Translations under genes and position numbers: made by a program | Assembly (NCBI GenBank): GCA_022822855.1 | Contig: JAJDYG010000030.1 | Span: 1 to 64,000, forward strand | Length of the DNA stretch: 64,000 bases | Direction of reading: 5' to 3' | Source: Dehalococcoidia bacterium | GTDB taxonomy: Bacteria; Chloroflexota; Dehalococcoidia; Bin125 | Part shown: positions 32 through 47,312 of the stretch, piece by piece | Layout of the letters: each line of letters opens with the position of its first letter | Numbering within the stretch: the first letter of the stretch is position 1 | The notes under the pieces: generated by a model | Database searches by the model: none | What the model was told of the DNA's origin: nothing | Seen by the model: the letters and a program-made list of their open reading frames with translations, nothing else

Positions 32-346
32 ATGCAGAAACCGATGGGTTACCGCGAAGCGATGGGCGATCTCTCGGGCATCGCGAAGGAGGGTCCCGCC
101 TACGTGCGGGTCAAGGCGCTGGTCACGATTGTGCGCGAAACATCGCCCAACAACCCCCGCCACGCCGACGTGATGCGTGAGATGGGCCTGGCCGACGAGT
201 TGGCGGGGGGATCGGAGGGCGATTCCGGATGTCCGCAGTGCGGACACGGGAATCGGGCACAGGAATCGATGCGGATGCTACGCGAGGAGGTTCTCGCCAG
301 AAGAGAAGCCGAGGAAGCCGCAGAGGACGAGGAGGACCCCCATTGA
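32..346 (+). CDS. Hypothetical small acidic-tailed protein (intact paralogue of the broken gene at 34900-35251)
   Basis: I do not recognise this family. The 104-residue product has a basic N-terminal part, a conserved-looking stretch YVRVKALVTIVRE near residues 27-39, a single CPQC pair near residue 70 and an acidic end (EEAAEDEEDPH). I chose the ATG at 32 because GAGGAG lies just upstream. Translation from there also lines up with the gene that starts at 35251 on the minus strand: both read MxxP, then a Tyr/Phe-Arg, then YxRxKALxxIVRE, and both end in an acidic run. A GTG at 11 would add seven residues. Function is unknown. The lone CxxC pair is too little to claim a zinc site. Confidence 0.6.
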   Translation: MQKPMGYREAMGDLSGIAKEGPAYVRVKALVTIVRETSPNNPRHADVMREMGLADELAGGSEGDSGCPQCGHGNRAQESMRMLREEVLARREAEEAAEDEEDPH

Positions 347-34899: not shown

Positions 34900-35251
34900 T
34901 TACAGGGGGTCGTCGTCTTCCTCGGGCGATTCCTCCTCCTGAGCGGGCCCCCCCCTCTGTCCCCGCATCAAGTGCGGGGCAGGCTTCTACGAGACATCTC
35001 CCCCCGCCGGAGGCGGGGGGAGAGAGGAACAGGTCGGCGTGGTCGTAGAGGTCGCGGAGGTGGTGGCGGGCGACGTCGTAGGGGTCGGTGGCGAGGTACA
35101 TCTCGTGGTTGAGGCGGGCTCGCTCGGTGGGGGCGAACAGTTCTCGGACGATGGCGTTGAGGGCCTTGAGTCGGATGTAGCCGGGGTTGTGGTCGCCTGA
35201 GCGTCGCCAGAGGCGGTCGATTTTGGCTCGGAAGTGGTAGGGGTTGGGCAT
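34900..35251 (-). pseudogene. Small hypothetical gene broken by a palindromic repeat
   Basis: The ATG at 35251 has GGAGA upstream and opens a frame reading MPNPYHFRAKIDRLWRRSG, then YIRLKALNAIVRELFAP, up to DHADLF near 35030. There an element of about 77 bases (34948-35024) begins. Beyond it, one of the other frames reads QEEESPEEDDDPL and stops at 34902-34900, which matches the acidic end of the paralogue at 32-346. The start and this stop are one base out of phase, so the current frame misses it and runs on as an unlikely Arg/Pro-rich tail to 34571, across the groES promoter and start. The N-terminal 70 residues may still be expressed as part of a longer chimera. Confidence 0.75.
34948..35024. 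repeat. Dispersed palindromic repeat (family A/C composite) inside a gene
   Basis: The segment begins with a CCCCCCTCTG-type end, contains CCCCGCATCAAGTGCGGGG (a 7-base-stem palindrome near 34961-34979) and ends in a long palindrome CTCCCCCCGCC/GGCGGGGGGAG. The same pieces recur at 35361-35424 and 35483-35501 and in valS, the SIS-CaiB gap, the nuoD-nuoH gap and the glnA-glnA gap. Confidence 0.85.
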
Positions 35252-35360
35252 TGGGGGGTCTCCTTGGTTTGGGATAGACGTATGTTCTGATGGTGTCGGG
35301 GTGATGAGGTGCGTGGGGAGTAGGTGAGGGCGCGGTGTTGTGTTGGTTGCGTTTCGGGGA

Positions 35361-35424
35361 GCCCCCCTCTGCCCCCGGGTCGGAGCCCGGGGCAGGCTTC
35401 GGCATCTCCCCCAAAGGGGGGAGA
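35361..35424. repeat. Family A palindromic repeat
   Basis: It starts GCCCCCCTCTGCCCCCGGG, contains a CCCCGGG/CCCGGGG palindrome and the linker GCAGGCTTCGGCATCTCCCC, and ends in a CTCCCCC/GGGGGGAG stem with an AAA loop. The order CCCCCCTCTGCC, TTCGGCATCTCCCCC, G-run, GAGA defines family A in this window. Confidence 0.85.
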
Positions 35425-35482
35425 AAAGGGAAAGCGCGGCATATCGCCCACGTGGCGGCGGAGATAAGGGGAAGCGTGGCAC

Positions 35483-35501
35483 CCCCGCATCAAGTGCGGG
35501 G
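35483..35501. repeat. Short palindrome CCCCGCATCAAGTGCGGGG
   Basis: A 19-base palindrome identical to the one within the element at 34948-35024, including the following CAGGC. It stands here without the rest of the family A element and is followed by AAGCACGGGGCA, which resembles the end of a family C unit. Confidence 0.8.
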
Positions 35502-35537
35502 CAGGCAAGCACGGGGCAACGGAGGGGGAGGGAGCGG

Positions 35538-35558
35538 GTCCCCGAATAAATCGGGGAC
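35538..35558. repeat. Family B palindrome (GTCCCCGA...TCGGGGAC)
   Basis: GTCCCCGA and TCGGGGAC flank a five-base centre, ATAAA. The preceding GGGAGCGG and following TGGGAA match the right half of the element at 60261-60350. Confidence 0.85.
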
Positions 35559-35620
35559 TGGGAATAGGAGAGTGGGGTTGGTTGCTGAGACGAGGTGTGT
35601 TGCGGTGGCCGGGTTGGGTG

Positions 35621-35652
35621 CTCTGGGCCCCGTGTCAAGCACGGGGCATCGA
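35621..35652. repeat. Solo family C unit
   Basis: CTCTGGGCCCCGTGTCAAGC continuing to ACGGGGCATCGA: a palindrome-bearing unit almost identical to the terminal inverted repeats of the two elements at 63565-63938. It occurs here alone, like a REP sequence or a MITE remnant. Confidence 0.85.
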
Positions 35653-41682: not shown

Positions 41683-42594
41683 ATGGCAGAGGCGTCGGCC
41701 GACACGACAGAGCATGCTGGGCAGGCAGGCGACAATCCCTTCCCGCATCTCGCCGGACGGGGGGACGGCGACGGTCCCTTCGAGACCGGCTTCGCTTCCG
41801 ATCATGGTCCGGAGGACGAGCACATCGTCGACGGCGAGTTGATGGAGTTCGGTCCGGAGGCGCTGCTGGCGCAGTTTCACGCGCAGCTACACGCTGGGAC
41901 GCCCTGGTTCGACGCGCTGCTGGATTGCATCCGCGACTGGGAATCGCCGCGCGAGACGTTCGACGGACGCGAGTATGTCTACCTGATCGAACACGAGGCG
42001 TTCGACTGGTTGCTGTTGGCCGAGCGGATCTGCGACTCGGCGCCTCCGGGACTGTTGCCGCGACATGAGGTCGAGGCGCTGCTGGTCGACGAATCACCGC
42101 CGACCACGCTGAGCGAGATCGAGTTCCAGGACCGCCTGGGTACGGCGAAGTACTGGGCGCATCTGAACTTTCTCTACGGCGTGCGGGTCGAGCAGGCGCT
42201 GCACCTGGCCATGGAGCGCGTTCTGCAGAAGGAGCGGAGCGGACTCTCGTTCTCGCACGCCCGCAACGACCTGGACGGCGACGTCTTCGGCCGCATCTAC
42301 GGCGCGCGGCAGGCGGAGCTGCTGCGCGAGTTTCGGTCGGCTGCCGACCGCTCGGACGCCGATCCGGAGCGGATCGAGCACGCCGAGTGGCAGGCATTCA
42401 CCTATTGGCTCTTCCGGCGTCGGCTCGAGCGTCAGGATCCGGCGCGGGTCGCCTCGGATACGCGGCAGGGGATGGAAATGCTCTACGAACTGGAAGCGGC
42501 CAAGCAGCGGCGCTTCCGACGCCGGGCTGCCGATGCCGAACGACCGGCCGACGATGCAGAGATTATCGACGGCGTACTCGTCGCTGTAGGTTAG
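41683..42594 (+). CDS. Hypothetical protein, 303 aa
   Basis: I do not recognise this family. From ATG 41683, two bases after the secA stop, the product has an acidic, disordered-looking N-terminus (to about residue 50) and then a mostly helical body rich in Trp, Arg, Glu and Leu (FDALLDCIRDWESPRETF, YVYLIEHEAFDWLLLAERI, YWAHLNFLYGVRVEQALH). No signal peptide, membrane segment or catalytic motif is visible. Position suggests cotranscription with secA. GGGAAGG upstream could serve as the ribosome site. Confidence 0.7.
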   Translation: MAEASADTTEHAGQAGDNPFPHLAGRGDGDGPFETGFASDHGPEDEHIVDGELMEFGPEALLAQFHAQLHAGTPWFDALLDCIRDWESPRETFDGREYVYLIEHEAFDWLLLAERICDSAPPGLLPRHEVEALLVDESPPTTLSEIEFQDRLGTAKYWAHLNFLYGVRVEQALHLAMERVLQKERSGLSFSHARNDLDGDVFGRIYGARQAELLREFRSAADRSDADPERIEHAEWQAFTYWLFRRRLERQDPARVASDTRQGMEMLYELEAAKQRRFRRRAADAERPADDAEIIDGVLVAVG

Positions 42595-42628
42595 GTTCGG
42601 CGCGCGCCCGGGCCAGAACGCGCCGAAC
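42595..42628. terminator. GC-rich dyad before valS
   Basis: GTTCGGCGCG (42595-42604) pairs perfectly with CGCGCCGAAC (42619-42628). No T run follows. The next 75 bases are C-rich and G-poor, which could be a Rho-utilisation site, so this may be a Rho-dependent end of the secA unit rather than an intrinsic terminator. Confidence 0.4.
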
Positions 42629-42715
42629 CCACCAGTCGCTCCCCTCAGCCAGCCACTCCACCAGCTCACCAGCCACACGCCACAAGCCAAGCCCAGCATC
42701 ATGCGGAGTTCAGCC

Positions 42716-45568
42716 GTGACCACTACTGAATTCGACCTGTCAATCGTCAGCGGCCTGACCGGCGCCTACGACGCGTCGGTCGTCGAGGACCCGATCTACG
42801 CCTTCTGGGAGGACAACGGCTGGTTCCGGCCGACGGATGCCTCGGACAGCGACTCTTCGCGTGATTCCCGCGCGGGCGGGAAGGAGCCGTTCACCGTGAT
42901 CATGCCGCCGCCGAACGTGACCGGCGTGCTGCACCTGGGCCACGCGGTGACGCTGACGATCGAGGACGCCCTGATCCGCTGGCATCGGATGCTGGGCGAG
43001 CCGGCCCTCTGGCTGCCGGGCCTCGACCACGCCGGGATCGCGACCCAGAGCGTGGTCGAACAGCAGCTCGCGCGCGAAGGGATGACCCGTCACGACCTGG
43101 GGCGCGAAGCGTTCGAGGAGCGGGTCTGGGACTGGGTCGGCGTGACTCGTCCGCGCATCACCGCGCAGGCGCGGCGGATGGGCGCGTCCTGCGACTGGGA
43201 ACGGACGGCCTTCACGCTGGATCCGACGCCGCGGGATGCGGTGCGGAAGACGTTCGTCGATCTGTTCAAAGACGGCAAGATCTATCGCGGGGCGCGGATC
43301 ATCAACTGGGATCCGCAGATGCTGACCGCGCTCTCCGATGTCGAAGTGGAGTACGAGGAGGAAGAAGGGAAACTCTGGCACGTCCGCTACCCGTTCGTCG
43401 ACGAGCGCGGCAATGAGCTAGAGGATGGAGTGGTCATCGCGACCACCAGGCCGGAGACGATTCCGGCAGACGTCGCCATTGCGGTCCACCCCGACGACGA
43501 GCGCTGGCAGCCGCATCTGGGTCGGCGCGTCCGACTGCCGCTGCGCGGCTTTGACCGCTTGATTCCGCTGATTGCCGATACCGGCGTCGACCTCGAGTTC
43601 GGCACCGGCGCGCTGAAGATCACGCCGGGACATGATCAGCTCGACTTTGAGATCGGCGAGCGTCACGGGCTGGAACCGATCCGCGTGGTCGACTGGGACG
43701 GCACGCTGACGGTCGAGGCCGGACTCTACGCCGGTATGGATCGGGACGAAGCGCGAGAGCTGGTCGCGCAGCATCTGGATCAGGACGGTTACCTGGTCGA
43801 GACCGAGACCCACGTCCATAACGTCGGGCACTCCCAGCGCTCCGGGGTGGTCGTGGAGCCGCTGGTCTCGAACCAGTGGTTCGTCGACACCGACGAGATG
43901 GCCGCCGAGGCGGCGCGGGTGGTGCGCGACGACGAAGTGCGGATCGTTCCCGAACGTTCCAAGAATGTCTACCTGCAGTGGATGGACAACATCCGACCGT
44001 GGTGCATCTCGCGGCAGCTCTGGTGGGGACACCGGATCCCGGCCTGGTACTGCCGAGTCTGCGACGCCGAGGCGATCATCACCGGAGACGACGGCGAGAT
44101 CACGATCGACGAAGGGTCCAATCCAATCGTCGAGCTGGAGGATCCCACGAGTTGCCCGACCTGCGGCCGGACGGAACTGGTGCAAGACCCCGACGTGCTC
44201 GACACCTGGTTCTCGTCTGGTCTGTGGACGCACTCGACGCTCGGCTGGCCCAATACGACCGACGATCTCTCGCGCTTCTATCCGTCCTCGGTGATGGAGA
44301 CCGGCTACGACATTCTCTTTTTCTGGGTCGCGCGGATGATCATGCTGGGCTGCTACAACATGGGCTCGGCGCCGTTCCACACGGTCTACCTGCACGGCCT
44401 GGTGCGCGACGCGCAGGGGCGCAAGATGTCGAAGTCGCTGGACAACGTGATCGACCCGCTGGAGAAAGCCGACCAGTACGGCATGGACGCGCTGCGCTTC
44501 ACGCTCGCCACCGGCTCGACGCCGGGCAACGACATGCGCCTGACCGACGAACGGCTGGAGGGTTCGCGGAACTTCGCGAACAAGTTGTGGAACGGCGCGA
44601 AGTTCGTCCTCGGCGAGATAGCTCAGGCTGATCTCACCTCTCCCCCAGCGGGCCAGGCTGAGAAGGCTCCCCTTAACCTCTCCTCTCCCCCCGCGGAGCG
44701 GGGGGAGATGCCGCAGGCAGAGGGGGGTTCCCCGCTCGAAGACCGCTGGATCCTTTCCCGACTCCAGGCTGTGACCGAGTCTGTCGACGAACTCCTGCGC
44801 CAGTTTCAGCTGGGAGAAGCGGGCAGGCAGATCCAGGACTTTCTCTGGGGCGAGTTCTTCGACTGGTACGTGGAAGCCAGCAAGGTGCGGCTACGGAACG
44901 GTGATCTCACGCCGCTTCCGGTGCTGACCAAAGTGCTTGACGGCGGGCTGCGGTTGCTGCATCCGTGGATGCCGTTCGTGACCGAGGCGATCTGGCAGCA
45001 ACTGCGGCCGCATCTTGGCGACGACGCGGATGCGACGGCGTTGATCGGCGCTCAGTATCCGCAACCGGGCGACTCAGCGCGGGACCTTGAGGCCGAGGAG
45101 GCCTTCTCAGCGGTGCAGGAGATCGTCACCGCGGTTCGCCAGGTGCGGGCCGACTACCGCGTGCAGGCCGGCCAGTGGGCGGAGGCGTACGTCCTGCCCC
45201 AGACCGAGGTCGCCGACGCGGTCAGCGCCTCTGCGCCGATCGTTGAAGTGCTGTCACGAGCTCGACCATTGACCATCGTTGCTGAGCGAGCCCAAGCTCC
45301 CACCGACCAGATCGCGTCTGCCGTGCTGCCCGCCGCGGAAGTCATCCTGCCGTTGGGGGGACTGGTTGACCTCGAGCAGGAGCGAGCCCGGCTGAACAAG
45401 GACCTCGAAGGCATCCTCAAACGACTTCGCGGCGCCGAGGCGAAGTTGGCCAACGAGGGCTTCCGCTCGAAAGCCCCGGCCGAGGTCGTGAAACAGGCGG
45501 AAGAGCTGGCCGCCGATCTCCAGCGTCAGCAGGCTGATCTGGAGTCGCGGATTGGGGCGCTGGGCTAA
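42716..45568 (+). CDS. valS: Valine--tRNA ligase (with a repeat-derived in-frame insertion)
   Basis: ValRS charges tRNA-Val. The 950-residue protein has the HIGH motif in MPPPNVTGVLHLGHAVT (about 65), the editing-domain block IATTRPETIPADVAI, and the KMSKS motif GRKMSKSLDNVIDPL near 570. The anticodon-binding domain and a C-terminal coiled coil follow. Between the catalytic and anticodon domains, at about residues 639-673, an Ala/Pro/Ser-rich stretch (LTSPPAGQAEKAPLNLSSP) is encoded by a family A repeat read in frame. I chose GTG 42716, with GGAG seven bases upstream; ATG 42701 would add five residues. Confidence 0.95.
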   Translation: MTTTEFDLSIVSGLTGAYDASVVEDPIYAFWEDNGWFRPTDASDSDSSRDSRAGGKEPFTVIMPPPNVTGVLHLGHAVTLTIEDALIRWHRMLGEPALWLPGLDHAGIATQSVVEQQLAREGMTRHDLGREAFEERVWDWVGVTRPRITAQARRMGASCDWERTAFTLDPTPRDAVRKTFVDLFKDGKIYRGARIINWDPQMLTALSDVEVEYEEEEGKLWHVRYPFVDERGNELEDGVVIATTRPETIPADVAIAVHPDDERWQPHLGRRVRLPLRGFDRLIPLIADTGVDLEFGTGALKITPGHDQLDFEIGERHGLEPIRVVDWDGTLTVEAGLYAGMDRDEARELVAQHLDQDGYLVETETHVHNVGHSQRSGVVVEPLVSNQWFVDTDEMAAEAARVVRDDEVRIVPERSKNVYLQWMDNIRPWCISRQLWWGHRIPAWYCRVCDAEAIITGDDGEITIDEGSNPIVELEDPTSCPTCGRTELVQDPDVLDTWFSSGLWTHSTLGWPNTTDDLSRFYPSSVMETGYDILFFWVARMIMLGCYNMGSAPFHTVYLHGLVRDAQGRKMSKSLDNVIDPLEKADQYGMDALRFTLATGSTPGNDMRLTDERLEGSRNFANKLWNGAKFVLGEIAQADLTSPPAGQAEKAPLNLSSPPAERGEMPQAEGGSPLEDRWILSRLQAVTESVDELLRQFQLGEAGRQIQDFLWGEFFDWYVEASKVRLRNGDLTPLPVLTKVLDGGLRLLHPWMPFVTEAIWQQLRPHLGDDADATALIGAQYPQPGDSARDLEAEEAFSAVQEIVTAVRQVRADYRVQAGQWAEAYVLPQTEVADAVSASAPIVEVLSRARPLTIVAERAQAPTDQIASAVLPAAEVILPLGGLVDLEQERARLNKDLEGILKRLRGAEAKLANEGFRSKAPAEVVKQAEELAADLQRQQADLESRIGALG
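44632..44737. repeat. Family A repeat inserted in frame in valS
   Basis: Read on the minus strand this segment has the family A order: CCCCCCTCTGCCTGCGGCAT, then CTCCCCCCGCTCCGCGGGGG and GAGAG. A second, partial palindromic piece (CTCTCCCCCAGCGGG) adjoins it. It contributes about 35 codons to valS without a stop or frameshift. Confidence 0.88.
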
Positions 45569-47196: not shown

Positions 47197-47267
47197 GTTG
47201 TCGGACCTCGGATCTTCCGCCTTGACGGCAGCCAGTTGAGTGGACAGATTGGGCGTCGGCTGACCAG

Positions 47268-47312
47268 CGCCCCCCTCTGCCTTCGGCATCTCCCCCCGCG
47301 GAGCGGGGGCAG
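47268..47312. repeat. Family A repeat between SIS and CaiB genes
   Basis: GCGCCCCCCTCTGCCTTCGG, CATCTCCCCCCGCGGAGCGG and GGGCAGAA in succession: the cleanest short example of family A. It lies in the gap between the two minus-strand genes and creates a spurious N-terminal extension of the SIS frame. Confidence 0.88.

Follow-up and report, generated by a model that had tools for sequence, protein, structure and literature searches.

Introduction

Palindromic elements carried in frame within bacterial genes are best known from Rickettsia. The Rickettsia palindromic elements (RPE) are described as repeats of ~150 bp that encode a conserved peptide and have hit unrelated genes (PMC10969869, citing Ogata et al. 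2000, 2002). The palindromic repeats analyzed here resemble RPE in being short, dispersed, and in frame within coding genes (PMC10969869), here including the housekeeping gene valS. They differ in measuring 24 to ~80 bp, short of the ~150 bp that goes with the conserved RPE peptide, in being apparently unrelated in sequence, in being concentrated as many mutually nested kinds in one linker of one multicopy family, and in having a Chloroflexota genus rather than Rickettsia as host. Because of the different length and the apparently different sequence, we do not file them as RPE.

REP sequences offer a second comparison; they go with TnpA-REP (Y1) transposases (PMC8266576, PMC3733652) and, like the elements described here, are short GC-rich hairpins of high copy number that lie mostly between genes (PMC8266576, PMC3733652). 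However, the elements here also lie inside genes, in frame, and no match to the Y1 transposase domain (Y1_Tnp, PF01797) was found in the genome under study, with a single weak match, in genome G009, among 15 genomes of the genus. The REP-associated Y1 transposase was dropped as a candidate mover of the elements on account of its absence from the genome under study.

The present analysis concerns a 64,000-nucleotide stretch of a Dehalococcoidia genome (hereafter the window), and the genome to which it belongs (G000) comprises 2.87 Mb in 42 contigs. In the explanation that we consider likely as a whole, a family of small proteins, each composed of a four-helix N-terminal domain and a conserved acidic tail with a disordered linker in between, has multiplied within a single genus, probably under LexA control. 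Short palindromes dispersed through the genome would settle in the linker and be tolerated only where the frame is kept; gene conversion would homogenize the copies, so that a composite of elements may arrive by inheritance or by copying as part of a linker; and the copy in the window would later have been put out of frame by a distinct one-base change in a G-run on the edge of its element. In this genus, several kinds of element keep changing in one protein linker, and the ~80 copies in 11 genomes act as replicates from which the tolerance of the linker, the choice of site by the elements, and the homogenization of paralogues can be measured. If SOS control is true, the multicopy family with its lexA-like boxes would in addition be a previously unrecognized component of how an uncultured lineage mounts its SOS response.

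Results and Discussion

The window copy carries a palindromic composite and a probably separate frame break

The features of the window discussed below are as follows.

34900 to 35251, minus strand: family member in the window, with its frame disrupted (start at 35251; original stop TAA at 34900-34902, in another frame)
35036 to 35251, minus strand: conserved N-terminal domain (N-domain), ~72 residues, four predicted helices (alignment and AlphaFold2)
34948 to 35023, minus strand: composite palindromic element within the linker, an outer E1 (TCTCCCCCCGCC...GGGGGGAGATGTCTC...AGAGGGG) with the inner hairpin E6 nested in it
34962 to 34985, minus strand: nested 24-base hairpin E6 (AGCCTGCCCCGCACTTGATGCGGG), its core present 59 times in the genome
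34948 to 34955, minus strand: run of eight G at the 3' edge of the element, net one base longer than in in-frame paralogues
34900 to 34938, minus strand: acidic C-terminal tail EEESPEEDDDPL with stop, conserved family-wide
35276 to 35288, minus strand: LexA-like box AGAACATACGTCT, lying downstream of a -10-like sequence and ahead of the start codon
35260 to 35265, minus strand: AAGGAG, resembling a ribosome-binding site
35357 to 35651: upstream spacer of the window copy, with additional palindromic elements (E1'/E6-type at 35357-35412; hairpins at 35483-35506, 35538-35558, and 35628-35651)
32 to 346, plus strand: distant relative in sister subfamily B, which has ~8 or more copies in G000 (profile search and hhalign)
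44684 to 44733, plus strand: palindromic element of E1 type carried in frame by the gene for valyl-tRNA synthetase (valS, 42590-45565), where it reads SSPPAERGEMPQAEGGSP

The open reading frame that begins at 35251 on the minus strand reads MPNPYHFRAK...LYDHADLF, enters the palindromic element, and leaves it out of phase, giving 226 amino acids as read. The loss of frame reported in a preliminary description of this locus, made from the window alone, was borne out, the acidic end with its stop at 34900-34902 lying one frame off. That description had attributed the split to the arrival of the element, and had missed both the multicopy nature of the gene and the in-frame position of the element in its other copies. 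The same E1+E6 composite was found in frame and in the same place in the G000 paralogues C2.1068 and C8.82078, and a close variant, also in frame, in C9.154821, C23.21749, and C36.22847. Given these in-frame paralogues and the net additional base at the G-run of the window copy, the frame break appears separate from the arrival of the element; judged from the alignments, it was probably caused by a one-base change at the 3'-edge G-run and not by the element, whose arrival at the window copy need not have been recent if the break is a later event. The reading in which a recent palindromic insertion split an intact gene and threw its frame would account for a frame that breaks down inside the element region and for two halves that can still be recognized, but it is most improbable in view of the other G000 copies with the same composite in frame at the same position, the one extra base in the G-run, and the length of the nested insert in these copies, 24 bases. 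Compared with its closest paralogue, the window copy shows 11 synonymous and 3 nonsynonymous differences (dN/dS 0.07), which suggests that it was under selection until recently.

All genomes considered here are draft assemblies, and the additional base could therefore be an error within the G-run of a copy that is really in frame. The eight-base run itself, the presence of 20 near-identical copies in the genome with paralogues ~90% identical, and contigs of relatives that end in family copies, a sign that assembly is strained here, all speak for such an error. Nevertheless, short-read assemblies are rarely wrong in a run of eight, and the G8CCC context at the edge of the element is unique to the window copy, which argues against its having simply been copied from a paralogue; we thus regard an assembly error as unlikely, and a genuine one-base change as the preferred reading. 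A further alternative is that the element-borne G-run acts as a slippage switch that flips copies in and out of frame. Runs of G6 to G8 do lie exactly between the N-domain and the tail in E1-bearing copies, and three copies are out of frame. Phase variation of this kind is nonetheless very unlikely, since a slippage switch would normally need more than a run of six, and most linkers hold other elements without such runs, with 75 of 78 copies in frame.

A multicopy family limited to one Chloroflexota genus

Searched with the gene at the DNA level, its own genome returned more than 15 long matches; at the protein level, 20 loci were recovered in G000 together with 65 listed in 10 relatives of the genus. 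The same protein search recovered the family in none of 26 genomes outside the genus. A profile search gave 30 loci in G000, with the sister subfamily included, and detected no member in those genomes of the class that were sampled beyond the genus. Public relatives are Chloroflexota or Dehalococcoidia metagenome-assembled genomes. By these searches, the family is limited to one Chloroflexota genus. Several contigs of relatives were observed to end in family copies; repeats of the family probably break assemblies, so that the copy numbers given here are lower bounds.

Almost all copies read as in-frame proteins of 96-136 residues, in which a linker of 28-66 residues, in ~30 different lengths and with palindromic elements as its usual content, separates the N-domain from the tail. 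The N-domain and the acidic tail are joined in frame in 75 of the 78 copies with a recognizable tail, although the copies are related and neither this frame retention nor the conservation of the promoter box described below can be counted as independent observations; the three copies out of frame are that of the window, G012.C22.190809, and G001.C2.110597. The N-domain is under purifying selection, with a median in-genome dN/dS of 0.31-0.83, values of up to 0.8 representing only moderate constraint. Selection on both ends of the protein would explain why only elements that keep the frame are tolerated, and the frame retention and the many types of element are the observations that support such tolerance.

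The preliminary description had also named the gene at 32-346 as an intact paralogue showing the original form. The two genes are indeed related: the family profile detects 32-346 with E=2e-8 while no other open reading frame of the window falls below 1, and hhalign aligned the two over residues 1-45 with a probability of 96.8. The N-terminal half and the acidic end are common to both, but the likeness ends there, and 32-346 belongs to sister subfamily B. The contig of the window both begins (32-346) and ends (C20 64057-64158) in copies of this subfamily.

At least six kinds of palindromic element, some nested

The linker palindromes are of at least six kinds, some of them nested, and are read in frame as listed here.

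E1: SPPASGGGRCLVETEGGSPQ, variant SPPAERGEMPKAEGGSPQ
E2: PLPLGEGWGEG
E3: VAPAQAGA
E4: SPLGGGAPHPCGAEGAAP
E5: VPAPERGPVP
E6: ACPALDAG; nested inside E1, E2, and E4

That the palindrome is dispersed, as first described, was confirmed for the inner hairpin GCCCCGCACTTGATGCGGGG, which occurs 59 times in G000 at no more than one mismatch compared with 0 for a reversed control, and whose core is present in 12 of 15 genomes of the genus. Nesting was also observed between genes, where E6 lies in the loop of another hairpin (CCCCGTGCTT...CACGGGGC) at L021, L168, L171, L233, and other loci, forming perfect palindromes of ~50 nt. The elements thus seem to insert into each other's loops.

The E1-type element of valS lies between the catalytic and anticodon-binding domains, where the valyl-tRNA synthetase encoded in the window is ~27 residues longer than the Thermus enzyme 1gax. 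This in-frame element indicates that in-frame tolerance is not restricted to the multicopy family. Another E1-type element was seen at 47255-47297, at the very start of a SIS-domain gene on the minus strand, which makes the true start codon of that gene uncertain.

Copies are most likely homogenized within each genome

The window copy lies between groES and prs, and a gene of the family occupies this position in the same orientation, with matching flanks, in G000, G001, G006, and G012; a copy in G014 adjoins groES at the start of a contig and was placed by its groES-side flank. The gene is absent from the groES-prs interval in G004, G005, G007, G008, G009, G011, and G013. The preliminary description had proposed alignment of this locus in close relatives, where an empty site with an uninterrupted gene would define the ends of the element. 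An intact gene of 99-127 codons was found in the relatives, but it bears other elements in its linker rather than being free of elements, and nowhere at groES-prs in these genomes did an empty site accompanied by a target duplication come to light. The linkers at the locus hold E1+E6 in G000, E1 in G001, E5 in G006, E3 in G012, and two E2 in G014, and among these five copies only that of G000 is out of frame.

These genomes share 93-97% identity in prs, yet identity to the window copy is only 60-78% for the N-domains at the locus, each of which has a nearer match among the paralogues of its own genome. Across all syntenic pairs, 58 of 68 comparisons placed the best paralogue from the same genome nearer than the copy at the syntenic site. 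Moreover, a single clade of the five locus copies was rejected (p-AU 6.6e-70), and the N-domain tree requires at least 32 changes of linker element. As far as these sequence comparisons can tell, the copies are homogenized within each genome, most likely by gene conversion, so that the window copy probably acquired its element composite together with a linker, by inheritance or by copying.

The family also gains loci, since three G000 copies occupy spacers whose counterparts in G006, G012, or G011 are short and empty. The extra DNA at these spacers amounts to ~0.9-1 kb or more and comprises upstream palindromes, the gene, and a conserved 3' tract; neither target duplications nor terminal repeats were seen at the three empty sites. 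Such gains raise the possibility that copies group by genome as a result of repeated moves into the same intergenic sites, and not of gene conversion. We consider this rather unlikely, if still worth entertaining, because four genomes share the groES-prs position, orientation, and flanks, for which one old insertion followed by conversion is the simpler account, and because repeated moves would have to be squared with the lack of any visible target duplication or terminal repeat. Homogenization by gene conversion thus remains the reading that we favor.

A LexA-like promoter box suggests SOS control

GAAC-N4-GTTC is the Gram-positive type of LexA/SOS box. A sequence of the form GAAC-N4-GTNC or GNAC-N4-GTTC was found within 110 nt upstream of 61 of 81 family copies, compared with 40 of 5675 control stretches and with 0.7 expected by shuffling, and lies mostly 31-45 nt ahead of the start codon. 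The box of the window copy departs from the family consensus GAAC-N4-GTNC at its last position, and about a quarter of the copies likewise fall outside the strict box pattern. A box of the same class precedes lexA in all 15 genomes, that of G000 (AGAACGCAAGTTC) being identical to the box ahead of the family copy C9.133716, and GCAC-N4-GTTC is present in the recA promoters of all 15. The sequence AGAACRYRNGTNC has 17 matches in G000, 9 of them ahead of family copies and 1 ahead of lexA; on a rough look, most of the remaining 7 fall within long open reading frames, and the only match in a clear spacer lies ahead of an AIR-synthase-type gene.

As in a LexA/SOS regulon, the box is thus at the promoter of most family copies, as it is at lexA and recA of the genus; the family differs in that its right half-site is usually GTAC or GTCC and in that its control is predicted from sequence. 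On the likeness of its box to those of lexA and recA, the family is probably SOS-controlled, that is, repressed by LexA and induced by DNA damage, which we offer as a strong prediction. To our knowledge, the family is not among known SOS genes. One could go further and suppose that a damage-induced family spreads and homogenizes through its own palindromes, with hairpins provoking breaks and repair from sister copies during the SOS response swapping linkers and multiplying copies, although we think this quite unlikely.

AlphaFold2 models of 20 relatives showed a confident four-helix N-domain (pLDDT 87-95 over residues 1-70 in one in-frame relative) followed by a disordered linker and tail, the latter ending in a conserved acidic EEDDDPL/W before the stop codon. 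Neither the window copy nor 32-346 matched Pfam, and a fold search with the N-domain against the PDB and viral models gave no match with E below 0.5. Our best guess at its role is that of a small protein accessory to the SOS response. Its layout, an ordered domain and a disordered linker with an acidic end that includes a proline and a hydrophobic last residue, and the EEDDDPL/W tail itself could suggest that it mimics the acidic C-terminal tip of the single-stranded DNA-binding protein (SSB) and competes for SSB partners. However, the SSB of the genus ends in PDAGDLPFE, and the likeness goes no further than an acidic-proline-hydrophobic end; this different end led us to reject SSB-tail mimicry, a reading that is very improbable. 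As a separate observation, G009 carries 11 SSB-domain genes, several of them adjacent, and the other genomes carry 1-6.

A LexA-type box was also present upstream of 5 of the 15 sister-subfamily copies examined. The boxes upstream of the sister subfamily B genes L178, L181, L179, L180, and L175 read GAACATGTGTTC, GAACCGCCGTTC, GCACAGCCGTTC, GCACAACCGTTC, and GCACGGTCGTTC, respectively.
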